From positions 1 to 35,711 of IMG/VR virus record IMGVR_UViG_3300045257_000049: a stretch of DNA of 35,711 nt. One strand, written 5' to 3'. Positions 1,941 to 27,867 of this stretch are shown here, one piece after another. The position numbers and the translations under genes were made by a program. The notes below the pieces were generated by a model. The model worked only from the letters and a program-made list of their open reading frames with translations, had not been told where the DNA came from and searched no databases. The number at the start of each line of letters is the position of its first letter. Positions within the stretch are counted from its first letter, which is position 1. This DNA is from a virus.

Positions 1941-2338
1941 ATCGAAAGTCCTCCAAACTCTTTCAACCCGACACTGAGAGCGAAGTGAATCACTTTAGAG
2001 ACTGGATAGTTCAACTTCTTCAAGCCTTGCAGGTAGGAAAGCACGTCTCCTTGGTAGAGTCGATCTTCGAGCTTCGCCTTCGGAGCATGACAATACTGAC
2101 AGGCACTTATCATTCCGAGCGGGTGATGCGAATAAATCCCGTGTTCATGGAGCCACCGGCGAGGAATCAAGTGTTCAAGAATTTGTTTTGGGTAACGAAT
2201 CTTTCCCTGTTCCACTGTGTAGGCTCTCCCATATTCTCTGTGGCACACTTCACAGGCAGTCCTGTTCACTTGTCTCCGCACGTAGTTCGGTATCCGCGTG
2301 AACTTCCCCCTAGAGCGGTCTACTTCATTTTTGAGCAT
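1937..2338 (-). CDS. HNH endonuclease
   Basis: This 133-residue protein carries the hallmarks of an HNH nuclease: C-E-V-C near residue 29, E-H-L-I-P-R-R (the His of the first beta strand) near 55, and C-Q-Y-C-H-A-P-K near 80 as the second zinc pair plus the terminal motif. Such enzymes cut DNA using a beta-beta-alpha-metal active site. In phages they act as homing nucleases, nicking enzymes or packaging factors. The N-terminus is basic. It lies inside the leftward operon, overlapping the upstream gene by 14 bases and the downstream gene by ATGA, so it may be a domesticated operon member. That is inferred from position. Confidence 0.8.
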   Translation of the reverse strand: MLKNEVDRSRGKFTRIPNYVRRQVNRTACEVCHREYGRAYTVEQGKIRYPKQILEHLIPRRWLHEHGIYSHHPLGMISACQYCHAPKAKLEDRLYQGDVLSYLQGLKKLNYPVSKVIHFALSVGLKEFGGLSI

Positions 2339-2792
2339 TGAGCATCCCCGCTGAATGTTGCAACTCTTCGTCTGTCGCTAACTCCAACTGCGCGTTCAAG
2401 AACTGCCAGAACTGATTGCTTGTCGTGAACCCCAGTACCTTCGAAACTCGCCATGCGTTCTGATTCGCGGCGTCGCGGATCTCCGGTGCCACCATCCACT
2501 TGAGGACACACTGCTCGTCCTGCCGTCCGTTGCGCTTGTCGGTGACGAACTTGGCCATGCACGCTCTCTGCCCCATGTCCACTACTTGCGCGTAGGCCAT
2601 TCCTGATTGCTTGGCCAGATGAACTGCCTCAATCTTCCGCAGTAAGGTGCTCTTGCCGAGTCCCGCAGCCGCAGCGAGGGCTTTCCCTGACTCCGTGCGC
2701 GTTCGACGGTCCATCTCCCAGACGGTACACACCAACGCTTCCCATTGCTTCTTGGAACCAGAGACAAACTGGTTTGCTGTGTCGCCGGTCAT
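2325..2792 (-). CDS. Hypothetical protein with possible helix-turn-helix segment
   Basis: This 155-residue product starts at ATG 2792, overlapping the stop of the recombination-like gene as ATGA. The segment from about residue 40 to 75 (A-A-A-A-G-L-G-K-S-T-L-L-R-K-I-E-A) resembles a helix-turn-helix. Its G-L-G-K-S-T stretch superficially resembles a Walker A loop, but no Walker B or other ATPase motif follows, so I do not call it an ATPase. The remainder is helical, with a Gln/Phe-rich patch near 125. Function is unknown; position suggests a replication/recombination accessory role. Confidence 0.65.
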   Translation of the reverse strand: MTGDTANQFVSGSKKQWEALVCTVWEMDRRTRTESGKALAAAAGLGKSTLLRKIEAVHLAKQSGMAYAQVVDMGQRACMAKFVTDKRNGRQDEQCVLKWMVAPEIRDAANQNAWRVSKVLGFTTSNQFWQFLNAQLELATDEELQHSAGMLNAQK

Positions 2793-4315
2793 GGGAACAA
2801 CCCCGGACTACCCGCCTCGCGGTTCTTCTGAATCACGGGCAGGTTATCCTCGAACTCCAGCGCTCCGATGCGCTTCAGGCCCACCAGGTTCCAATACTCG
2901 CCGCGCTTCTCGATGTAGAGTTCGGCTTCCTTGCCCTTGCCGCGAGTCAGGTGCTCGAACCAGTCTTTCTTGAACGCGGAGTACCACTGGCTCTTGCCGT
3001 CTGCTTTGACCATGATGCTGAGATACGGCACAGATGGCCTCGCCTTCGTGCCGCGCTCCGGGTTCGCTGCGACACCTCTCGTCATCTTCTCGGCTGTCTG
3101 CTCGATGATGCCCTTGAGCACGATGGGCTCCGCAGCAGGGGCGGTGGTAGCCTTCGGCTTTCCGCCCCCTTCCCGTGCTGCGGCCTTCGGACTATTGGCG
3201 CTGCGGCCCGAAGATGTCTCTGGCAGGATTTCCTGAAAGCGGTACTTCGCTGCGGCACAGGCCTCCCCGATCTTCACCGCGTCTTCCGCCTTCACATGCC
3301 AGAACTCGTCTGTACCCCAGTGGAGCAAGGGCTTCAATGCCTCGATAGCGTCGGCGTCACCCGTCACTACAGGGTTGTCCTTGTCGTGCCAGTCAATCAG
3401 AACTTGTTGCGCGTCTGCTGGCAGGTCTGGGAGTGGCTGTACTACCGTGGCTACTGGGATGTCGCTGGTCCTCGTCAGGTCTGGGTGTATGGACAGAATG
3501 AGGTTTGCGGCCTCTTCGGGAGCACTCACTGACTTCCCCACCTGCCTGCCCAGTTTAAAGGCCTTCTCAGAGGCTTTCTGCGATTCCGCGAGCTTTCTGT
3601 CCTCTTCCTCGCTACGCTTGAGCGCTGCCTCTGCCATTAGCGCCTGTGGGCTACCTGGTGCGTGGCCGTGGGCTGCATTCTCATTCAGGGCTGGCTGCTC
3701 GGCAGGTGGCGCGTCACGGTACTGGTAGATTCTACCGTCCGGCGTCACCCCACCCACCACCTGCATCGTGTCGAGCTCCGACTCGTCCAGAAACGCCAAA
3801 CCCGCGATGGAGAGAGTCGCTCTCCTTTTAGCCTTCGTGGAGCACTTCATCAAGGCGTTGGCCAGGTCCTTGCCCGTGTAGTCAATCCTTTTGCCGTCCT
3901 TCACCTTCCAGAGTGGCACCACACCCATAGACATATCCGTCCTTCCGGTTCTGTCTTGGACCTGAACCTCGACGTAGCACATATCGTTCTCGATCTTCTG
4001 GGTGTGCGTGAGCACAGAGATGCCGTGTAGTTTTCTCAGTTGCTCGGCGCAACTCTTCGTGGCGTAGAGAGAGAGCTTTGCTGGCCCCATTCCCGGCTCT
4101 TGAAAGAGGATGTACATGAATGGACTCGTCAAAGGGTTAAGTCCCAATGACATACATACCTTCTTGTAGTAGTCCACGCGCTCTGCCGGAGTCAGTGGAG
4201 ACAGGTCGCCAGCGATCAAGACCTTCTCGACACTCTCGGCAAGAGACAATGGCGCTATCTTGGCGAGTGGTAGAGGCTTCTCAGCCTTCTTGAGTGTCTT
4301 CTTGGCTTTTGGCAT
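2789..4315 (-). CDS. Putative phage recombination / single-strand annealing protein
   Basis: This 508-residue protein starts at ATG 4315 with AAGGAG seven bases upstream. Residues about 25-180 match a widespread phage family with the pattern S-L-G-L-N-P-L-T-S-P-F, L-S-L-Y-A-T-K-S-C-A-E-Q-L, D-R-T-G-R-T-D, A-L-M-K-C-S-T-K-A-K-R-R, then L-D-E-S-E. I associate this family with RecT-like/annealing recombinases, but I recall the link from family resemblance and cannot test it here. A Pro/Ala-rich linker and helical middle follow. The last about 95 residues form a beta-rich, OB-like module. If correct, it pairs homologous strands during phage replication with help from the nearby nuclease genes. 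Confidence 0.65.
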   Translation of the reverse strand: MPKAKKTLKKAEKPLPLAKIAPLSLAESVEKVLIAGDLSPLTPAERVDYYKKVCMSLGLNPLTSPFMYILFQEPGMGPAKLSLYATKSCAEQLRKLHGISVLTHTQKIENDMCYVEVQVQDRTGRTDMSMGVVPLWKVKDGKRIDYTGKDLANALMKCSTKAKRRATLSIAGLAFLDESELDTMQVVGGVTPDGRIYQYRDAPPAEQPALNENAAHGHAPGSPQALMAEAALKRSEEEDRKLAESQKASEKAFKLGRQVGKSVSAPEEAANLILSIHPDLTRTSDIPVATVVQPLPDLPADAQQVLIDWHDKDNPVVTGDADAIEALKPLLHWGTDEFWHVKAEDAVKIGEACAAAKYRFQEILPETSSGRSANSPKAAAREGGGKPKATTAPAAEPIVLKGIIEQTAEKMTRGVAANPERGTKARPSVPYLSIMVKADGKSQWYSAFKKDWFEHLTRGKGKEAELYIEKRGEYWNLVGLKRIGALEFEDNLPVIQKNREAGSPGLFP

Positions 4316-5497: not shown

Positions 5498-6373
5498 TTA
5501 TTCTCCTTCTTTCATCGAATAACCCAACTCATCTTTGCCTGTCGGTAGCGCGATAGCCAATCCATTGGCGTAGGCATCGCGAATGCCAGTAGTGTATTTC
5601 AGGGCGGGTGTCTTCACCCATTCTTGTTTGGAGGCGTAAAATACTATGAGCGCATCCCGCGCAGCCCGCGCATCCCACGCATCCCGCGCATCCCACGCAT
5701 CCCGCGCATCCCACGCAGCCCACGCATCCCGCGCAGCCCACGCATCCCGCGCATCCCGCGCAGCCCACGCATCCCACGCATCCCACGCATCCCACGCATC
5801 CCACGCAGCCCACGCATCCCACGCATCCCGCGCAGCCCACGCAGCCCACGCAGCCCACGCAGCCCACGCATCCCGCGCAGTTTTATATTCTTTAATAGAC
5901 CACCGGAGGTCGCGCTCCGCGAGCGCGTCTTGAAGTCCCCGAACGACGGCTGCTTGATTATTTTCCGGTCTGCCAAGAGCGTACCTCCATGAGATTTGCT
6001 CCGAAGTCATTTCAGACTTGAACTTACCGAAGGCTTCGGAGAGCTTTTCGATTCCCTGTGCAATCCGTACTTCTGTAGCTAGGTTGACGATTCGCAATCC
6101 AGATGACCGCCACTTATCCGAGCGCTGAATCGCGTCCTTAGATGGTTCAACGATAGCGACGATAGATGGCCTTCCAGTCTTCCACATCCCGGCAATTCGT
6201 AAACCTGTGGCGATGGAGTCCACGAAGTTCCAACCCGCTCCGCATTCAACATGGGAATCGTCCAGATCAACAGTTGGCAACTCAAACGGCACAGAGCCAT
6301 CCCAGTGTGCCTTTCCGCCTTGAATCGGTGGAGTGTAATCGCTGTTGAAAATCTTGAAGAACTCTTGCGGCAT
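5498..6373 (-). CDS. DUF7666-like protein with Asp/Ala-Ala-Trp/Arg tandem repeats
   Basis: This 291-residue protein starts at ATG 6373 after AAGGAGAGAAT. Residues 1-105 resemble a phage domain (F-K-I-F-N-S-D-Y near 6, C-G-A-G-W-N-F near 44, V-E-P near 75) that I relate to the DUF7666 group, whose members often end in Ala-rich repeats. Residues about 167-241 are 25 three-residue units in which position 1 is Asp or Ala, position 2 is Ala, and position 3 is Trp or Arg. A unique tail follows. The periodic Trp/Arg suggests a helical or solenoid surface. Function is unknown. Confidence 0.75.
5652..5876 (-). repeat. 9-bp tandem repeat (25 units) inside the DUF7666-like gene
   Basis: Exactly 225 bases are built from the plus-strand unit GCA[T/G]CCC[G/A]C. 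Only two of the nine positions vary, and each takes two states, giving four unit types that encode D-A-W, D-A-R, A-A-W and A-A-R on the minus strand. There are no indels out of the 9-base register. Because the unit is a multiple of three, copy-number change would preserve the reading frame. It is coding DNA, not a CRISPR array: there are no unique spacers. Confidence 0.95.
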
Positions 6374-9523: not shown

Positions 9524-10069
9524 GTGGCGATTGACGTATTCATACGCACGATGAGCGATATAAACAAGATGAGGGTGGGACTTCGGATGGCTACGTTTGA
9601 GCGGTGGGATATGGACCCGGAGGCTCACCCGCAATTTATCGTGGACCGGGGAATCCGGGAGGCTCGCCTATGGGCCGAAGAACAGGCTACTACTGACCCC
9701 TATATCTTCACGGACGACGATGTGTTGCCGTGGGGTAAGGATTGGCTTCGCAGGGGTCTAACCGCCATGCAGAATCACCCTGAGTTTGCGGCGTGCTCGT
9801 CTAGGTCGGTGATTGCGGAGGAACGTGGCAATTACCAGATACCGGATGGCGTGGAGATTATGGAGGTGCCGTGCGTCGGTGCTCCGCTCTGGATGCGGAA
9901 GGGAATCTTGAAGGACGATATTCGGGAGTTTCTGTTTGTCGAAGAGTGTATCGAACTACACAACTATTTAAGGTTGAGAGGCTACAAGGAAGGGATTATT
10001 GCCGGGTTAGAGCATCTTCATTTGGGGTATGGGTTCGCTACTAATCCTTCTTTGGTGAGGGGCTATTGA
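9524..10069 (+). CDS. GT-A-type glycosyltransferase (short)
   Basis: This 181-residue protein starts at GTG 9524. It has an N-terminal strand V-F-I-R-T, an aspartate cluster T-D-D-D (residues 63-66) after P-Y-I-F consistent with the metal/nucleotide-sugar DxD motif of GT-A enzymes, and A-P-L-W-M-R-K near 120, resembling an acceptor-side loop. It is short for the fold (family members are commonly 220 or more residues), so it may be a minimal or specialised enzyme. The stop overlaps the next gene as TTGA, placing it first in a tightly coupled glycan operon. Donor and acceptor cannot be read from sequence. Confidence 0.75.
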   Translation: MAIDVFIRTMSDINKMRVGLRMATFERWDMDPEAHPQFIVDRGIREARLWAEEQATTDPYIFTDDDVLPWGKDWLRRGLTAMQNHPEFAACSSRSVIAEERGNYQIPDGVEIMEVPCVGAPLWMRKGILKDDIREFLFVEECIELHNYLRLRGYKEGIIAGLEHLHLGYGFATNPSLVRGY

Positions 10070-10761
10070 GCGTCAAGCTCCAAGGTGGCATGGGCAACCA
10101 GATGTTCCAAGTGGCCTACGGACTATCGAAAGGTTGCCGTACCTTCGACATCTCTTCCTTCGATAATGATACGCTTCGCCACTACGAAATGGACCAGTGG
10201 GACTTGGACATCGAACTTGTGCGCGACCCGAACGCCGAAGCCGGGTACTGGCAGGATGAGAAGTACTTCGATGCTCCACTGGTTAGAAAGATATTCGCTA
10301 ATCCCAAATGGCCCCCTAGTCCTGAGTGCTTAAGGTTCGCTCGATGGAAGATTCAAGATGCGGAAAATTCTTGTTTTATTGGTATTCGTCGTGCTGACTA
10401 CTTGTGGCCTGAACGCATTAACTATCACGGCGTTCTTTCCATCGACTACTACCGTGAAGCGATATGGAGAATGCCGTTCGGCACTCGTTTCTTCGTCTTT
10501 ACTGACGACATTCCGTGGGCTACCGAAAATCTTTGCCCGTTGGCTAAAATCGTTGACGTGAACGGCCCCAACGAAAAGGCTTGGGACATCTGGCTTATGT
10601 CGCTATGTAAATCGGCGATAATTGCAAATTCGACGTTCCATTTTTGGGGAGCTTGGCTACAGAACGATACCGGAACTGTGATTACTCCAAAACGCTGGTA
10701 CGCCGATGAGAAAGTCAACGCCGAGTGTACGATTGTCCCCGGAAGGTGGATAAAGATATGA
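10066..10761 (+). CDS. GT11-family (alpha-1,2-fucosyltransferase-like) glycosyltransferase
   Basis: This 231-residue product starts at TTG 10066, overlapping the previous stop. It shows the GT11 signatures in order: L-Q-G-G-M-G-N-Q-M-F-Q-V-A at residues 5-17 (GDP-sugar loop), G-I-R-R-A-D-Y near 106, H-G-V-L-S-I-D-Y-Y near 121, F-F-V-F-T-D-D near 142, and N-S-T-F-H-F-W-G-A-W near 188. GT11 enzymes transfer L-fucose from GDP-fucose in alpha-1,2 linkage; the exact sugar is inferred. It is shorter than typical (about 280-300) but contains all motifs. It acts in the host cytoplasm. Confidence 0.88.
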   Translation: MSVKLQGGMGNQMFQVAYGLSKGCRTFDISSFDNDTLRHYEMDQWDLDIELVRDPNAEAGYWQDEKYFDAPLVRKIFANPKWPPSPECLRFARWKIQDAENSCFIGIRRADYLWPERINYHGVLSIDYYREAIWRMPFGTRFFVFTDDIPWATENLCPLAKIVDVNGPNEKAWDIWLMSLCKSAIIANSTFHFWGAWLQNDTGTVITPKRWYADEKVNAECTIVPGRWIKI

Positions 10762-10922
10762 CCCGAGAAGAATTGGAAAAACTTGATGCTCAAGCCGAGA
10801 AGGTAGTGAAAGATACCGCCGATAGATTCATTGAAGCATTAACTCTGTTCGTTAGACTGAGAGTTCAGAAGGACATGCTCTTTCTGGAAACTGGCGATAA
10901 AACCCTGGTGGATAAAAAGTGA
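10758..10922 (+). CDS. Small helical protein (54 aa)
   Basis: Start chosen at ATG 10758, which overlaps the preceding stop as ATGA and has GGTGG upstream. The product is a single charged amphipathic helix (E-E-L-E-K-L-D-A-Q-A-E-K-V-V-K near residue 4). It ends in a GTGA overlap with the GT31-like gene. It is embedded between two glycosyltransferases, so it may assist one of them; no direct evidence. Confidence 0.6.
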   Translation: MTREELEKLDAQAEKVVKDTADRFIEALTLFVRLRVQKDMLFLETGDKTLVDKK

Positions 10923-11608
10923 AACTCCTCCTCGCCGTCAAGAGTTGCCGCCGCGACCAGCAAACAGGGTGCCACGAAGCTATCCGTGAAACCTACGCCG
11001 CAAATCTTCCCGAAGGCGTAGACGTTCGCTTCTTCATGGGAGGCGAAGGTCCAATCCTCATGGAAGCCGACGAAGTGCTTCTTCCTGTTCCTGATGACTA
11101 CTGGACGCTCACTCCAAAGACGAAAGCTATCTGCCGCTATGCCGTTATGAACGAATACGATTTTACTTACACTTGTGACACCGACACTTACCTGATTCCT
11201 TCTCGAATGCTTGAAAGCGAGTTTGCGAAGTACGACTTCTCCGGTGGGCACCTGTGCCACGGTGAGCATGGGCAGGAATTGGGTAAACCATACCCCGGCT
11301 GGACTTCTCCGCAAGGTGGGGTGGCTGACCCGTTCTACGCCTATATGTCCGGTGGCGTAGGAATGTTTCTGTCCCATAAAGCCGCTGAGATGGTCGCCAC
11401 AACCGAGTACTACCACCACTCCGAAGATGTCTGGGTCGGACAGGTACTCGGACCATTTATACAGAACGGTGAACTCACAGGAGCTGTACTAAAGAACTTC
11501 GAGTATTACGCCGCTTGGCACCTAAACTGTGGCTATTACGGTGGCGGCCACGCGGAAAGATTGTCGCCTGCCGAGGCTATAAGAAGGAAACACAATGAAC
11601 CAAGATGA
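10919..11608 (+). CDS. GT31-like (galactosyltransferase/fringe-type) glycosyltransferase
   Basis: This 229-residue protein starts at GTG 10919. Ordered motifs match the GT31 group: K-S-C near residue 8, R-E-T-Y (an R-x-T-W-like motif) near 23, V-R-F-F-M-G-G near 36, C-D-T-D-T-Y at 86-91 (DxD metal site), G-G-V-G-M-F-L-S near 145, and E-D-V-W-V-G at 169-174 (catalytic E-D motif). GT31 enzymes typically form beta-1,3 linkages from UDP-sugars. There is no signal peptide, so it would act in the cytoplasm. It is well supported as a glycosyltransferase; the sugar is unknown. Confidence 0.82.
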   Translation: MKLLLAVKSCRRDQQTGCHEAIRETYAANLPEGVDVRFFMGGEGPILMEADEVLLPVPDDYWTLTPKTKAICRYAVMNEYDFTYTCDTDTYLIPSRMLESEFAKYDFSGGHLCHGEHGQELGKPYPGWTSPQGGVADPFYAYMSGGVGMFLSHKAAEMVATTEYYHHSEDVWVGQVLGPFIQNGELTGAVLKNFEYYAAWHLNCGYYGGGHAERLSPAEAIRRKHNEPR

Positions 11609-12230
11609 GTTGGCGAAGTACGCGCAAGAGAATGCTGAACGCTTCTGGAAAGATGCCGGAGAACACTGGCTAAACGACCGTCTCGACCTGAAAGCCGATG
11701 CCCACGTCGTTGAAGTCGGAGGATACCTCGGTAACTGGGCAGACTACGTTGCGCGCAAGTATGAGTGCTACGTAGAAGTCTACGAACCAGTCAAAGAGTT
11801 CTACGACCACATGCTAAAGCGGTTCTCCAATCGCCCGAATATCCAAGTAAAGAACGTCGCGGTCTTAGATGGTATCGGTGAAGCGCATATCGCGGTCATG
11901 GGAGAAGGCTCAACCTTCTACACGCCGGGAGCCTGCGAAGGGCCAAACGTAGCCATAACGGACATCGACAAAATTGTTAGACCAGTATGCGGATTAGTGG
12001 ATTTACTGGCTCTCAACTGCGAAGGCTCCGAGTACGACATCCTCGACCGCCTACTATTTACCGGAAACATCTGGAGAGTAGACCGGCTACTTGTCCAGTT
12101 CCACGCGAATCATCTCAATGCCGAAACTCGCCGTTCCGCTATCCGCGAGAAGTTAACAAAGACTCATTCCGAAGTCTGGGCCTACCCCTACTGCTGGGAA
12201 CTCTGGAAGATTCATGGAGAAGGCGTATGA
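11595..12230 (+). CDS. FkbM-family methyltransferase 1
   Basis: This 211-residue protein starts at ATG 11595 with AAGGA upstream and overlaps the previous gene by 14 bases. It has an SAM-binding strand-loop (V-V-E-V-G-G-Y-L-G-N-W, residues 38-48), an acidic E-P after the second strand (E-V-Y-E-P), and the FkbM hallmark N-C-E-G-S-E-Y-D-I-L (141-150). FkbM enzymes O-methylate sugars or polyketide hydroxyls; here the setting argues for glycan methylation. It is the first of three such genes in the cassette. Confidence 0.82.
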   Translation: MNQDELAKYAQENAERFWKDAGEHWLNDRLDLKADAHVVEVGGYLGNWADYVARKYECYVEVYEPVKEFYDHMLKRFSNRPNIQVKNVAVLDGIGEAHIAVMGEGSTFYTPGACEGPNVAITDIDKIVRPVCGLVDLLALNCEGSEYDILDRLLFTGNIWRVDRLLVQFHANHLNAETRRSAIREKLTKTHSEVWAYPYCWELWKIHGEGV

Positions 12231-13030
12231 GAATCCTCATCACTGGAGCGCAAGGCTACATCGGAACTCGATTACAGGAATACGTGCGCCACGCCTACTC
12301 TGGGGACGATATCGGGTACTGTGACAAGAAGAATCATCGGGCACAGGACTACGCCCTCATCGAGAATGATTCCTTCGACGTGGTATTCCACCTCGGCGCT
12401 ATCTCGACCATCATGGACTCGTTCGCTCGCGCCGACGAGATGATGGAAGTTAACGCCTTCAACCTGATTCCCTTCCTAACGAAGAACAAAATAGGAAAAC
12501 TCATCTTCACCTCTACTGGGGCCATCTACGGAAACTGCTCTCACCCGATGAAAGAGGAAGAAGCGAAGTGGATGGATTGCCTTTCTCCCTACGCGCAATC
12601 CAAGTATGTTGCCGAGGGCATCATTCGCAAGCTACAGCCGAATCACGTCATCTGTAGATTGGGAAATGTCTTTGGTGGCGACTACTCGCCCCGCGAAGAG
12701 TGGCTATCCATTCCACACTTCATGAAGGACGATCCCATCGTGGTCTACGGTGGAGAGCAGGTCAGAGACTTCATCCATATTGCTTCCGTATGCTGGGCTT
12801 TGGTCGAAGCCTCGCTCGATAAGAAAGTAGTCGGCACCTACAACATTGCAAGGGGCGAAGGCCAGCTACTCAAACAGGTTGCCGAACAGTTTTCTCGTGA
12901 ACGTAAAGTTCCCATCGTCTATGAGCCTCATCGACACGGAGACGCCAAGAACGTCGTGCTAGATGTAACCAAAGCCACGCAATGCGGACTTCTTCACGAC
13001 TGTCCACCTCCAAATGACTACCACCTATAG
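12227..13030 (+). CDS. NAD-dependent sugar epimerase/dehydratase (extended SDR)
   Basis: The start is ATG 12227 (ATGA overlap); an upstream in-frame extension to 11987 is a shadow of the methyltransferase. The 267-residue protein has the Rossmann motif G-A-Q-G-Y-I-G (7-13), T-S-T-G-A-I-Y-G (95-102), and the catalytic Y-A-Q-S-K (Tyr122, Lys126) of extended short-chain dehydrogenases. These remodel NDP-sugars, for example by C4 epimerisation or 4,6-dehydration. It probably supplies or tunes the nucleotide sugar used by the neighbouring transferases, with GDP- or UDP-sugar unresolved. Confidence 0.88.
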   Translation: MRILITGAQGYIGTRLQEYVRHAYSGDDIGYCDKKNHRAQDYALIENDSFDVVFHLGAISTIMDSFARADEMMEVNAFNLIPFLTKNKIGKLIFTSTGAIYGNCSHPMKEEEAKWMDCLSPYAQSKYVAEGIIRKLQPNHVICRLGNVFGGDYSPREEWLSIPHFMKDDPIVVYGGEQVRDFIHIASVCWALVEASLDKKVVGTYNIARGEGQLLKQVAEQFSRERKVPIVYEPHRHGDAKNVVLDVTKATQCGLLHDCPPPNDYHL

Positions 13031-13706
13031 CCAGTTCCTAAAGGAAGGAAGTCTCGCGTTCGATGTGGGAGCCTATGGAGGCTCCCGCACCGATATGTTT
13101 CTGGAACTCGGATGCGCGAAAGTGGTGTCTATCGAACCAGTCCGAGAATACTGTGACCGTTTAAGGAAGAAATACGAGGGAGATAATCGGGTTACTGTCG
13201 TTGAATCGGCACTGGGAGCGAAGAACGGAATAGGAACACTATTTATCCACAAATCTCAGTGGCCCAATGGTACTCCGATGGATAGCGCTCTATCTTCGAT
13301 GTCCGATGAATGGATTGCTTCCGTGGAGCAGCATCCCGAATGGAATCTTCGTTCTTCCGATTGGAGCGGGAGGCAACTTGTGGTTATGGCTACGCTCGAT
13401 ACCTTCATCGAAGGATTTGGAGAGCCTGACTTCATTAAAATTGATGTCGAAGGATGGGAACAAGAAGTCATAAAAGGACTAACGAAACCCGTCAAGGCAC
13501 TCTCTTTTGAGTTTCACTCGCTCCTCCACATGGACTGGACCGAACGAGTTATCGACTATCTTCTGACTCTAGGAAACTACGAGTTTAACTACGATGTTGG
13601 CGACAGTACGGAACTCGCTTCTCCGGTCTGGATGGACAAGACGGAACTCTTCTGGCAAATACTCGACAAAGACATCTACGGGGACATCTTTGCGAGGCGA
13701 GTGTGA
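13014..13706 (+). CDS. FkbM-family methyltransferase 2
   Basis: This 230-residue product overlaps the epimerase by 17 bases. The SAM motif is A-F-D-V-G-A-Y-G-G-S (15-24), the acidic residue after strand two lies in S-I-E-P-V-R-E-Y, and the FkbM motif is I-K-I-D-V-E-G-W-E-Q-E-V-I (141-153), the most canonical of the three copies in this cassette. It is expected to methylate a sugar hydroxyl. The three copies differ in length and motif detail, so they probably have different acceptor positions rather than being recent duplicates. Confidence 0.85.
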   Translation: MTTTYSQFLKEGSLAFDVGAYGGSRTDMFLELGCAKVVSIEPVREYCDRLRKKYEGDNRVTVVESALGAKNGIGTLFIHKSQWPNGTPMDSALSSMSDEWIASVEQHPEWNLRSSDWSGRQLVVMATLDTFIEGFGEPDFIKIDVEGWEQEVIKGLTKPVKALSFEFHSLLHMDWTERVIDYLLTLGNYEFNYDVGDSTELASPVWMDKTELFWQILDKDIYGDIFARRV

Positions 13707-14611
13707 AAGTATTTACCGCCAACGACTGTAGCCCGGAGTTTGTCGAATTGCAGTACCGTTCGTTCGAGAAATACCTTCACGAACCATTCGAGTTCTTTGT
13801 CTTCAACTGCGACCAGTCCATCACGAAGACTCCTGATAAGTCAGCGCAGGTAAACGAAGTCTGCCGCTCGCTCGGCATTCAAGTAATCGAAATTCCCAGA
13901 GATAGGGAAATCGAACAGTACCGCCTCTCACTCGCTCCCGGCGAAAGCCTATTCAATTCAGATGGTAGATTTATTAGAGGCATCGGCGGGGACACGTTCA
14001 ACTACATGCTTCAGTGGATATGGACGCGATACTTTCCCTTACAGCAGGAGCAAATATGCTTCTGTCACAGCGACGTGTTCTTGATCGAACCAATACGGTT
14101 GAGCGATTACCTGGTGGATTATTCGCTATGCGCTCCACTATCCCACAAGGAAACTGGTCAGGCTCCTCGCAGGGATGGGCTACAGATTGGCACAGGGGCA
14201 CAAGGCGAGCACGACCTAAAGAGTCGGCACTCTACCATCAACTATCTCTGGGAAGCGTTCATGCTAGCCGACCTGCCCAAACTCCCCGACCTCACGTCTC
14301 TCGACTGGTGGCCGAACGTAGTCGAAGGTATCTGGACTGATACCGGAGGACGGACGCACTACTGGCTTAAGGAACATCCCGAAATCAAACTCTTAGAAGT
14401 CGGCCAGTCCGGTTGCCATGACGACGCTAGTTTGGACTTCCATCCATCGCGCTACTCGTTCTTCCATCTTGGCGATAAGAAGATTCTTCACTACTATTCT
14501 GGTTCAAGATGGTGTACGAACATGGGAACTTATTGGAATTTTACGAAAGAACAATCCGAGGACTACCACGCAAGAAAGTTAGAGTGGACGAGGAGAATGA
14601 TTGGGTTATGA
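13703..14611 (+). CDS. Glycosyltransferase-like protein
   Basis: This 302-residue protein starts at GTG 13703 (GTGA overlap). It has an N-terminal beta-alpha pattern (V-F-T-A-N-D-C-S; F-E-F-F-V-F-N-C) and a C-F-C-H-S-D-V-F-L segment (119-127) in which H-S-D stands where GT-A enzymes have DxD. A His/Trp-rich C-terminal half (F-F-H-L-G, I-L-H-Y-Y-S-G) resembles phage or bacterial transferases of unassigned family. I call it glycosyltransferase-like from fold pattern and its place in the cassette. Cofactor and sugar are unknown. Confidence 0.6.
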   Translation: MKVFTANDCSPEFVELQYRSFEKYLHEPFEFFVFNCDQSITKTPDKSAQVNEVCRSLGIQVIEIPRDREIEQYRLSLAPGESLFNSDGRFIRGIGGDTFNYMLQWIWTRYFPLQQEQICFCHSDVFLIEPIRLSDYLVDYSLCAPLSHKETGQAPRRDGLQIGTGAQGEHDLKSRHSTINYLWEAFMLADLPKLPDLTSLDWWPNVVEGIWTDTGGRTHYWLKEHPEIKLLEVGQSGCHDDASLDFHPSRYSFFHLGDKKILHYYSGSRWCTNMGTYWNFTKEQSEDYHARKLEWTRRMIGL

Positions 14612-23948: not shown

Positions 23949-24401
23949 TTGAAACACGCTATCAAACCATCGGAGATTGATTGCGCCAAAATGGCGGCCT
24001 ACATCGACAGTGAAGGCTGCATTTCGATATTGTCCGCAAAGGGGAAGGCCAACTTTTCTTTGATGCTGACGATAAGCAACTGCGATGTCCGTTTGATAGA
24101 GTGGTGCAAAAACACCTTTGGAGTAGGGACTGTCTGCATGGTGATTCGTAGGAGCGACAAGCACCGGCAGTGTTATAACTGGAGAGCCTCGGCTAATCAG
24201 GCCGAAGAAATCCTCAAATTCTGCTATCCCTATTTCACCATCAAGAAAGAACAAGCCGACATCGTATTTTCTTTCCGCAGAACCTTCTTTTCCAATGGAA
24301 AACTGAACCACAAGAATAACCCCCTAGGTGCTGGGGTGATGGAACAACGGCGAGTAATGCAGGTCAATCTTTCTCAACTTAAACATGGGGTGGTCCAATG
24401 A
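23949..24401 (+). CDS. LAGLIDADG homing endonuclease 1
   Basis: This 150-residue protein starts at TTG 23949, directly after the preceding stop. The M-A-A-Y-I-D-S-E-G motif (about residues 15-23) is the single LAGLIDADG helix with its catalytic Asp/Glu. Downstream Y-P-Y-F-T-I-K-K-E-Q matches the second conserved block. Single-motif enzymes act as homodimers, cutting a long DNA target and driving homing. It is a clear relative of the gene at 27409. It is not inside an obvious intron. Its stop overlaps the next structural gene as ATGA, so it is well fitted into the operon. Confidence 0.88.
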   Translation: MKHAIKPSEIDCAKMAAYIDSEGCISILSAKGKANFSLMLTISNCDVRLIEWCKNTFGVGTVCMVIRRSDKHRQCYNWRASANQAEEILKFCYPYFTIKKEQADIVFSFRRTFFSNGKLNHKNNPLGAGVMEQRRVMQVNLSQLKHGVVQ

Positions 24402-25600: not shown

Positions 25601-25771
25601 GTGCCCACTTTGGCGAAAATGTATCCAGACCTTTACGCCAATGGTTCAACGCCAGCACTAAAAGAATTTCTGGAAAGAGTTTTATCGGACCTAGGGCTTG
25701 CAGGGAATCAGGACGTTGTAGCGGCACTAGTGGAAACGATTAAGCAGTATATCTCGGAAGGTGGAACGTGA
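25601..25771 (+). CDS. Small hypothetical protein (56 aa)
   Basis: A 56-codon frame starts at GTG 25601 after AAGGGG at seven-base spacing (ATG 25619 is an alternative start). The product is an amphipathic helical peptide (L-K-E-F-L-E-R-V-L-S-D-L-G-L near 20, V-V-A-A-L-V-E-T-I-K near 39). It lies between scaffold and capsid genes. No family recognised. Confidence 0.6.
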   Translation: MPTLAKMYPDLYANGSTPALKEFLERVLSDLGLAGNQDVVAALVETIKQYISEGGT

Positions 25772-25822: not shown

Positions 25823-26089
25823 TTAACGACGTTGGACTGATGGCGTCTCTAACCTACGAGATTGGAGACGCATCTTCTCTTTGTAATCACGGTTCTTCTT
25901 TGAGCATTTCTCTGGATTGTCCTTCCGCCACTGAGCATAGTAGGCGTCCATGCGTTTCTTGTTTTTCTGCGCCCACCGCTTACAAGTTGCGGCGTGCTGC
26001 TCTTTGTGCGTGGCGACATATTCGCGCTGCCGTTCGAGAATGCGCTCCTTATTTCGCTCATAGTATTCCTTTTGTCGAGCGAGAATCAT
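25823..26089 (-). pseudogene. Antisense fragment resembling the N-terminal part of an HNH homing endonuclease
   Basis: This minus-strand frame encodes an 88-residue Lys/Arg/Glu/Tyr-rich segment (Y-Y-E-R-N-K-E-R-I-L-E-R-Q-R-E-Y) typical of the N-terminal repeats of phage HNH endonucleases. The catalytic His/Asn motifs are absent, and it ends early in a short unrelated tail. Upstream, the frame continues a few codons (T-K-E-H-Y-E-K-N-K) and stops at a TGA directly following an ATG, as if an original start was disrupted. No ribosome-binding site is visible. I infer a degenerate homing-endonuclease remnant inserted before the capsid gene. The plus-strand frame over the same DNA (25768-26169) is not convincing. 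Confidence 0.4.
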
Positions 26090-26161: not shown

Positions 26162-26253
26162 ATGGCTAGCGTCGTAGGCACAGGAATTGCTACGCCTCCA
26201 GCGCAACTCGTCAACACCGTACAGGCAATAGTGCAAAAGTACATCGCGCCCGT
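26162..26253 (+). CDS. Major capsid protein, exon 1 (N-terminal 31 codons)
   Basis: ATG 26162 follows AGGGAG at nine-base spacing. The reading frame gives a normal-looking N-terminus (A-S-V-V-G-T-G-I-A-T-P-P, then I-V-Q-K-Y-I-A-P-V) typical of a class of phage capsid proteins, and then stops at TAA 26258-26260. The remaining capsid sequence continues in another phase 3' of the intron-like element. Joining after base 26253 to base 26486 restores one frame of 325 residues (A-P-V then D-Q-V-L-L-P). A junction after 26258 and before 26488 would also restore frame; the exact splice site is not proven. Confidence 0.75.
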
Positions 26254-26485
26254 CAACTAAACGGCGGCTCTCGGCAGCAATGCCGGGATGAAAATTCTCT
26301 CTGATTGACTTGGATGCTGAGATGCAAACAGGGCGGAAGGCCAGCAATGACCACCGTGAGAGACTAAGCGAGAGAACATCCCTCTGGGATGGTGCGATAG
26401 TCCGAACTTCCAGAAATTAGAACTGGAAGAAAGTGGCAGAAATGACCACTTCTGTGCTGGAAGGCACAGTAACAAAATGCGTTGG
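26254..26485 (+). ncRNA. Group I intron-like element interrupting the major capsid gene
   Basis: About 232 bases carry no open frame and fold into a compact group I core. P2 is CGGCA-GCAA-TGCCG (26272-26285). P3 is TTCTCTC (26295-26301) with GAGAGAA (26370-26376). A P4/P6-region helix is TGCTG (26315-26319) with CAGCA (26342-26346). P7 is GACTA (26362-26366) with TAGTC (26398-26402). P8 is CATCCC-TCT-GGGATG (26377-26391). P9 is CTTCCAG/CTGGAAG (26407-26429). Two further hairpins are at 26431-26451 and 26452-26469. The ordering P3-P7-P3'-P8-P7'-P9 and the AGACTA/ATAGTCC elements are diagnostic of group I. A candidate P1 (CCGT with GCGG) has the required U-G pair at 26253. Full size is at the small end of the family. 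Splicing itself is inferred. Confidence 0.78.
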
Positions 26486-27371
26486 CGATCAAGTTCTTTT
26501 GCCGTGTCCTACGATGTGGGCGCTTGTCCGCAGAGGCAAGAAGATGGCGGGAGGCGCGTTAGTCTATCCTGAGTTCTTTCAGGAAGAGACGACGGGAGGC
26601 GCGTACTACGGCGCTCAGTTGCTTAACACCGCTCTCCAAGACGTGGTGCAGCCTGCCGAGCAACAGTGGCGGTTCTACTACGAAGCCGTAGTTATTCCCT
26701 ACACTGACATCATTCTCGGTCGCGGTGGCTACGCTGGCGTGGACATCGTGCGCCAGAAATTCCAGACGGCTGCCGGCTCGTTCATGCAGAAGTTAGCTCG
26801 CGCTCTCTACGGCAGCGCTCCTCAGAACACTTCTCTCGACATCGACAATATCGACCAGTGGATAGGTCAGACGACGAACACGATTGCGGGTATCAATCGC
26901 TCTACCGCTGGCAACACGTTCTGGCAGCCTCAAGCGAACGCCTCTGCCGGTAACGCGGCTCTCTCGATTGCGAACGCAGACGCTGCCTACTGGTCAACGG
27001 TATTCGGTTACGACGAACCTGACTTGATGGTGATGGACAACACGCGCTACGCGAACTTCAAGCAGGCGTTTCAAGCGACCACTCGTTTCGTTGACAACAT
27101 TCAAGACAAAGAAGCGCTCCAGCAGGGTTTCCGCTACCACTTCCTGTTCAACAACTGCGTGGTCTTGGCCGACCGCAACTGCTTGGCGAACGTGTCGTAC
27201 ATCATGAACTCGAAATACATGTTCCCGGTTTTCCACGAAGCCGATTACTTTGTCATCGATCCCTGGGTGAAACCGAGCAACCAAAGAGTTTTGGTTTCAA
27301 ACGTTTATCTTACATGGCAGCTAGCAAATCTTTCGCCACGCATGGGCGCGAAAATTGTGAACCAAAACTAA
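26486..27371 (+). CDS. Major capsid protein, exon 2 (main body)
   Basis: This frame carries the bulk of the capsid protein (about 294 residues). Features are P-T-M-W-A-L-V-R-R-G-K-K near its start, G-G-A-Y-Y-G-A-Q-L-L-N-T, W-R-F-Y-Y-E-A-V-V-I-P-Y-T-D, a C-terminal Q-G-F-R-Y-H-F-L-F-N-N, and F-H-E-A-D-Y-F-V-I-D. The ordering resembles HK97-fold coat proteins of podovirus-like phages. It follows the scaffold gene. In the unspliced transcript a GTG at 26433 opens this frame but would give an odd N-terminus from intron sequence, supporting the two-exon model. It is the major shell protein, assembled in the procapsid. Confidence 0.88.
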
Positions 27372-27408: not shown

Positions 27409-27867
27409 ATGAAAGAAGCAAGCGAACTCGACCTAGCAAGACTGGCAGCGTACATAGACTCGGAAGGGTCTATCTGCATCAGTCTCTCAAAGAGAGATTA
27501 CAGTCGCCGTGGTATCTACCACGCCCTACATCTTACGGTGTCGAATACGGACGCTAGACTCCCTCTCTGGTGTCGAGAAAAATTCGGCGGTCACGCGAAA
27601 ATGATTACAGTCGGTGGCAAGCGGAGATTGAATGTTTTCCACTGGCATGTTACCGCACAAAATGCCTCAGAAATTCTTTCCGCCTGCTTGCCTTATTTCA
27701 TTATCAAGAAAGAGCAAGCGTTGATAGGAATAGAGTTTCAGAAGACCAAGGGGAACAGAGGAGAGCGAGTCAGCGACGAAGATTTTGAAACTCGCACTTC
27801 TCATCGGGAAGAATTGCAAAGACTTCATCGTGAACCAGTGGGACACGACAAGGTATCAATGGAGTAA
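27409..27867 (+). CDS. LAGLIDADG homing endonuclease 2
   Basis: This 152-residue protein starts at ATG 27409 behind GGAGGAG. L-A-A-Y-I-D-S-E-G-S-I (residues 10-20) is the LAGLIDADG motif with the catalytic acid. L-T-V-S-N-T-D-A-R-L near 45 and L-P-Y-F-I-I-K-K-E-Q-A near 95 match the blocks of the gene at 23949, making these two clear paralogs with divergent C-termini. It lies 37 bases after the capsid stop codon, in the same orientation, and therefore beside the intron-bearing gene. It may cut intronless capsid genes in trans; this is inferred. Confidence 0.88.
   Translation: MKEASELDLARLAAYIDSEGSICISLSKRDYSRRGIYHALHLTVSNTDARLPLWCREKFGGHAKMITVGGKRRLNVFHWHVTAQNASEILSACLPYFIIKKEQALIGIEFQKTKGNRGERVSDEDFETRTSHREELQRLHREPVGHDKVSME

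Follow-up and report, generated by a model that had tools for sequence, protein, structure and literature searches.

A compact insertion with a group I intron core splits the major capsid gene of a phage and belongs to a large family found in virion genes

Results

The DNA analysed here, to which we refer as the window, comprises the 35,711 nucleotides of the IMG/VR virus record IMGVR_UViG_3300045257_000049. Its major capsid gene is split into two exons (table 1). As the first-pass annotation of this DNA had noticed, the reading frame that opens with ATG 26162 soon runs into the stop codon TAA 26258, and a longer frame, which extends to 27371, lies in another phase. The protein encoded by exon 2 also shows a distant similarity (27%) to the capsid proteins of the Myxococcus phages Mx8 and Mx9. 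Scanning IMG/VR with the capsid protein yielded 20 loci, 13 of them with 83-94% protein identity, and in most of the 20 the gene is uninterrupted; a search of the genome collection with the same protein gave no match. In two of these loci (L003 and L012, at about 5790-6000), the capsid frame extends 5' of the usual start (RDSYEYSGPVEL...), which resembles an N-terminal extension.

Alignment with the intronless relatives fixes the junction at 26253/26480 and delimits an insertion of 226 nt. When 26253 is joined to 26480, a protein of 327 aa results that aligns without a gap across the junction with the intronless proteins (YIAPV/VGDQVLL, with the slash marking the junction). At this point the joined protein reads MASVVGTGIATPPAQLVNTVQAIVQKYIAPV/VGDQVLLPCPTMWALV..., in register with these relatives, and the spliced mRNA is predicted to read GCGCCCGT/CGTTGGCG (also written GCGCCCGT/CGTTGGCGATCAAG). 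The first-pass annotation had assumed an intron of about 232 bases and a joined protein of 325 residues, which the measured length and the intronless homologues correct, and it had offered two candidate junctions. In the first of these, 26253/26486, the 5' boundary stands, but exon 2 begins 6 nt upstream of the proposed 3' boundary; the second, 26258/26488, does not fit the homologues and would arithmetically yield 326 aa. That homologous phages might encode capsid residues in this segment is excluded, because the intronless homologues do not have the segment.

Table 1. Features of the split capsid gene and its intron (window coordinates).
Feature	Position	Strand	Remarks
Major capsid gene, split	26162-27371	+	one gene in two exons around the intron
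Shine-Dalgarno-like AAGGGAGAA	immediately 5' of exon 1 ATG 26162	+	
Exon 1 of major capsid gene	26162-26253	+	92 nt; last base is codon position 2; start and protein sequence identical in intronless homologues
P1, exon side CCGU, with U at the splice site	26250-26253	+	pairs with 26264-26267 GCGG, U.G wobble
Very probable group I intron, ORF-less	26254-26479	+	226 nt; absent from intronless homologues; covariance-model matches
In-frame stop at intron nt 5-7	26258-26260	+	equivalent place in all four capsid introns
Candidate P10 strand AACG	26260-26263	+	can pair with CGUU 26480-26483; by eye
Internal guide sequence GCGG (P1)	26264-26267	+	sequence; pairing judged by eye
P2 hairpin	26269-26288	+	fold; L004 intron is without P2
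P3 5' strand	26295-26301	+	pairs with 26370-26376; double changes at 7 of 7 pairs in 111 sequences
P4	26309-26312/26329-26332	+	covariation, both alignments
P5	26315-26317/26324-26326	+	covariation, both alignments
P6 and P6a	26333-26357 (P6, 26333-26336/26354-26357)	+	covariation, both alignments
P7 5' strand G(a)GACUA, bulged A 26361	26360-26366	+	pairs with 26398-26403
P3 3' strand	26370-26376	+	covariation, 18- and 111-sequence alignments
P8 hairpin	26377-26391	+	covariation, both alignments
P7 3' strand UAGUCC	26398-26403	+	covariation, both alignments
P9, P9.1 and P9.2 hairpins	26407-26469	+	fold, z = -6.0
Terminal guanosine (omega G)	26479	+	G is last intron base in all four capsid introns
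Exon 2 of major capsid gene, stop included	26480-27371	+	phrog_9953 major head protein, 4.6e-24
Free-standing LAGLIDADG-type endonuclease ORF	27409-27867	+	phrog_5046, 1.2e-17; directly 3' of capsid gene

Elsewhere in the window, two related free-standing LAGLIDADG-type ORFs (23949-24401 and 27409-27867), which are 42% identical to each other, flank a region whose last gene is the capsid gene; PHROGs labels this ORF family HNH, and Pfam weakly assigns 23949-24401 to LAGLIDADG_1. The interval separating the capsid gene from a small gene at 25768 contains a small basic minus-strand ORF (25823-26089; KEYYERNKERILERQREY...), which has a distant homologue 5' of the capsid gene in L010 and, by eye, similar minus-strand sequences in L004 and L008. 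Possibly this ORF is a mobile gene whose arrival shortened the ORF upstream of it. Another minus-strand ORF (5498-6373) contains a long repeat run encoded by repetitive DNA, and ORFs within 9524-14611 resemble, by eye only, genes for sugar transfer, methyl transfer and NDP-sugar epimerase.

The insertion is precisely absent from the homologues, its removal restores the gene, and its sequence accommodates both the P3-P8 and the P4-P6 domains (folding z = -3.7 for the intron region). The helices P2, P3, P7, P8 and P9 are all present in the order given in the first-pass annotation, with its AGACTA/ATAGTCC elements representing P7, and its statement that the intron carries no endonuclease agrees with a length of 226 nt and the lack of any ORF. 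P7 has its bulge beside a G-C pair, i.e. the guanosine site, and is pseudoknotted with P3. The pairing of four bases with the guide, ending in U.G, corresponds to the P1 that a group I intron should have. P10, a pairing between the guide region and the 3' exon, is common in such introns but not universal. That P1 has only 4 bp in the window counts against a group I reading.

In three of the related loci (L004, L006 and L013), the same gene is interrupted 33 nt upstream, i.e. after nt 59 rather than after nt 92 as in the window, by related introns of 197, 233 and 235 nt, respectively. All four capsid introns are inserted after codon position 2, are preceded by CCGU, contain the guide GCGG and a stop at nt 5-7, and end with G; in all four, as also in the Roseobacter phage CRP-118 described below, the final U of the 5' exon is paired to a G of the guide. 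The candidate P10 pairings, all judged by eye, are longest in L006 (5 bp), followed by the window (4 bp), L013 (3 bp) and L004 (2 bp). Where such a pairing is strong, it fits the intron's own site: AACG can pair with CGUU in the window, and CUUGG can pair with UCAAG in L006. In L004 it is weak. Over ungapped columns, the window intron is 87-89% identical to those of L006 and L013, compared with about 81% for exon 2. In the intron tree it clusters with these two (97/94), whereas L004 belongs to another lineage despite sharing their site; thus, two lineages have arrived at one and the same site, and a single lineage is found at two sites. L153, which the tree attaches to L013 by a long branch of weak SH-aLRT support, was treated as an artefact.

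Core sequences for comparative analysis were gathered by two pattern scans of IMG/VR, each of which returned more than 100 stretches. Since the patterns used for retrieval prescribed some letters of P3, P4 and P7, invariance of these letters is uninformative. Among 18 diverse cores, changes on both sides occur at 22 of 34 pairs and 96.4% of the cells are paired, and sliding the partners by 1-3 columns reduces pairing to 36-44%. In an alignment of 111 distinct family sequences fitted to the model structure, in which P7 lies outside the model, compensatory double changes were found at 27 of 31 pairs, and 95.4% of the cells are paired, a level reached in none of 500 shuffles. The P7 pair across the bulge is G-C in 55, A-U in 42, C-G in 3 and U-A in 1 of the sequences of this alignment. 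Moreover, a base in J8/7 changes in concert with a P4 pair (UA accompanies G in 54 and CG accompanies A in 42 cases, with few exceptions) and behaves like a tertiary contact, even if common ancestry may inflate this covariation.

A covariance model of the family (R1) scores the window intron with 112 bits. A second model (R2), built from 14 sequences excluding the window, L004, L006 and L013, detects the window intron with 103.1 bits (E = 2.9e-22) as well as the introns of the other three loci, and gives no match in the intronless capsid loci. The Rfam search suggested by the first-pass annotation (Intron_gpI, RF00028) was negative for the window intron and its sister introns, both at the gathering threshold and at E up to 10. 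This silence does not discriminate, since RF00028, while finding the T4 nrdD intron with 105 bits, also misses the experimentally spliced capsid intron of phage LittleE; its seed has been described as incomplete and missing whole subgroups (PMC11878797). With the unfiltered family model, the best match in 18 kb of T4 is the nrdD intron, overlapping the RF00028 match, and the best match in LittleE is the capsid intron; at E = 0.4-0.7 these two matches are weak, and we read them as reflecting the common group I core rather than close kinship.

In 199 IMG/VR loci that had been fetched by sequence pattern, R1 produced 265 matches at E up to 0.001. Many of these introns lie in capsid and portal genes. 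Host genes were assigned via cluster representatives matching PHROGs and via capsid HMM mapping; beside the genes for portal proteins and for major head proteins from several families, they include those for a head-tail adaptor, a terminase, a tape measure protein and ribonucleotide reductase as well as a QueE-like gene. Some ORFs adjoining family introns are endonucleases. Automatically picked 3'-exon ORFs were not used for this assignment, because they were in wrong frames at several loci. Copies are also present in three deposited phages, i.e. the Manatee Spring phage MW202674.1, Desulfovibrio phage 7757 and Roseobacter phage CRP-118; in the last of these, the intron splits the ribonucleotide reductase gene inside the NPCSEI motif and has a long P1 that includes CCGU/GCGG (P1 by eye). 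A scan of a bacterial and archaeal genome collection with the family pattern gave two matches, neither of them backed by the model, and as far as an exact pattern can tell the family looks phage-borne. In the Manatee Spring phage (L232, MW202674.1 14377-19498), the record divides a P22-type coat protein (2193-3708 of this locus) into two CDSs, which are separated by a hypothetical ORF; this gap holds a family intron, and the two-CDS annotation is probably wrong. Three further loci contain three family cores each within about 0.8-1.3 kb (L081, 5900-6668; L199, 3993-5322; L111, 408-1399), suggesting multi-intron genes with short exons.

In the wider capsid family, HMM mapping places introns at several positions of this one gene, with two in some genes. 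Near-identical ORF-less introns occupy three CCU-ending sites in L143, L185, L187, L196, L198, L200 and L214, and some of these loci have two. The pairs L143/L214 and L198/L200 as well as L185 carry introns at three different sites, and sister loci show these sites empty. Among 128 intron pairs with at least 88% identity, 117 share the same site, and most of the other 11 represent flanks shifted within the same gene.

Discussion

Our analysis makes it very probable that the insertion at 26254-26479 is a group I intron, compact and ORF-less, which splices itself out of the capsid message, so that the 327-aa protein can be made. The first-pass annotation had already proposed a compact group I-type intron in this gene, and this is borne out by the precise insertion, by covariation in the core and by P1 and the final G. 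For the chemistry and efficiency of splicing and for the role of the stop codon, we infer from family membership what would happen. The transcribed intron would fold into P1-P9, and an exogenous guanosine bound in the P7 pocket would attack after U26253, which takes part in P1 through a U.G wobble. Next, exon 1 would attack after G26479 and ligate 26253 to 26480, generating the mRNA for the 327-aa capsid protein. On the unspliced message, TAA 26258-26260 would halt ribosomes just past the splice site, and ribosomes should therefore not traverse the ribozyme.

How the intron came to its site is a separate question, and its possible answers are compatible with group I splicing. Near-identical introns at several sites amid more diverged exons are circumstantial evidence for local re-insertion, in which an intron would reverse-splice into capsid mRNA, be reverse-transcribed and return by recombination, i.e. 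without endonuclease homing. For the window this origin is possible, if on balance unlikely. It would account for the grouping of the window intron with those of L006 and L013 in spite of the 33 nt between their sites, for introns that are more alike than their second exons, and for a related capsid clade with introns 87-95% identical at the three CCU-ending sites amid exons of about 70-84% identity. Similar reasoning has been applied to fungal rDNA introns (PMC1299323), where such patterns of sites and lineages are regarded as circumstantial evidence for reverse splicing (PMC1299323; PMC3984707). On the other hand, an intron may be under more constraint than synonymous sites of exons, and endonucleases of relaxed specificity or recombination are also able to move introns. 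The more general proposal, that the compact, endonuclease-free introns of the family change their position within strongly expressed virion genes by reverse-splicing into the abundant late capsid mRNA, with a guide match of only about 3-5 nt being needed before the return to DNA, and that the window copy was displaced in this way by 33 nt relative to its sister phages, is tentative and, in our estimate, rather unlikely.

The endonuclease gene directly downstream offers a different route, i.e. collaborative homing, in which the LAGLIDADG protein encoded at 27409-27867 would cleave the insertion site in capsid alleles that lack the intron. This gene adjoins an intron-bearing gene, as in cases reviewed previously (PMC3984707), and many other loci with family introns contain homologues of it. 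Yet the endonuclease and the intron are not distributed in parallel. Homologues directly 3' of the capsid gene are present in the intron-bearing L004 but also in the intronless L001, L003 and L009, where they would cut their own DNA if the intact site were the target, and they are absent from this position in L006 and L013, i.e. in two of the four intron-bearing phages. We therefore consider collaborative homing, although possible, doubtful as the main account, and prefer to see in 27409-27867 a homing gene that is free-standing and independent.

Two other readings would do without splicing. A dead insertion that leaves a broken capsid gene in a defective phage, or a misassembled contig, might be suspected from a single metagenomic record of 35.7 kb, but the same RNA with conserved pairing recurs in four capsid loci and many other contigs, the exons are open and highly identical to their homologues, and the joined frame is exact, all of which makes this very improbable. 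In T4 gene 60, ribosomes bypass a gap of about 50 nt. That ribosomes similarly hop over an untranslated gap in the window is scarcely conceivable, because, even though exon 1 reaches a stop and the gap is highly structured, the fold is that of a group I core, with covariation in P3 and P7, the splice sites have their U and G together with a guide sequence, the same RNA family is found at other sites and in other genes, and 226 nt far exceeds the T4 gap.

With group I splicing as the preferred reading, the window intron is another example of a capsid intron, a class already known and, with LittleE, Tuc2009, the Delta and Zeta crAss-like phages and the many IMG/VR loci found here, commoner than the first-pass annotation assumed in calling reports of such introns rare. 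Capsid-gene introns have precedents in LittleE and Tuc2009, and splicing of the former was shown by RT-PCR and N-terminal sequencing (PMC3706429). The LittleE intron likewise interrupts the major capsid gene, has a U before its 5' splice site and a final G and is missed by RF00028, but it is about 820 nt long, carries a LAGLIDADG-like ORF on the opposite strand and matches the model of the window's family only weakly. Delta and Zeta crAss-like phages recurrently have group I introns in the MCP gene, which in one case lies in five fragments (PMC7886860); there too the capsid gene is the target, but these are different phages, in which the introns were found via endonuclease-type domains. Within the window's own family, the intron of MW202674.1 (90 bits) also resides in a coat-protein gene, although one annotated as a different type (P22-type), and that of CRP-118 shares CCGU/GCGG in P1 but sits in a non-structural gene. 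T4 nrdD has the group I core in common, but carries I-TevII and is recognized by RF00028. The family departs from these precedents in being large, in escaping RF00028, in occurring often in virion genes and in its pattern of relocation within genes.

A capsid protein is needed in bulk, and in such phages its supply should thus depend on RNA splicing. Furthermore, a large intron family that goes unseen by the standard Rfam model leaves capsid genes to be annotated as two broken ORFs, as in MW202674.1.
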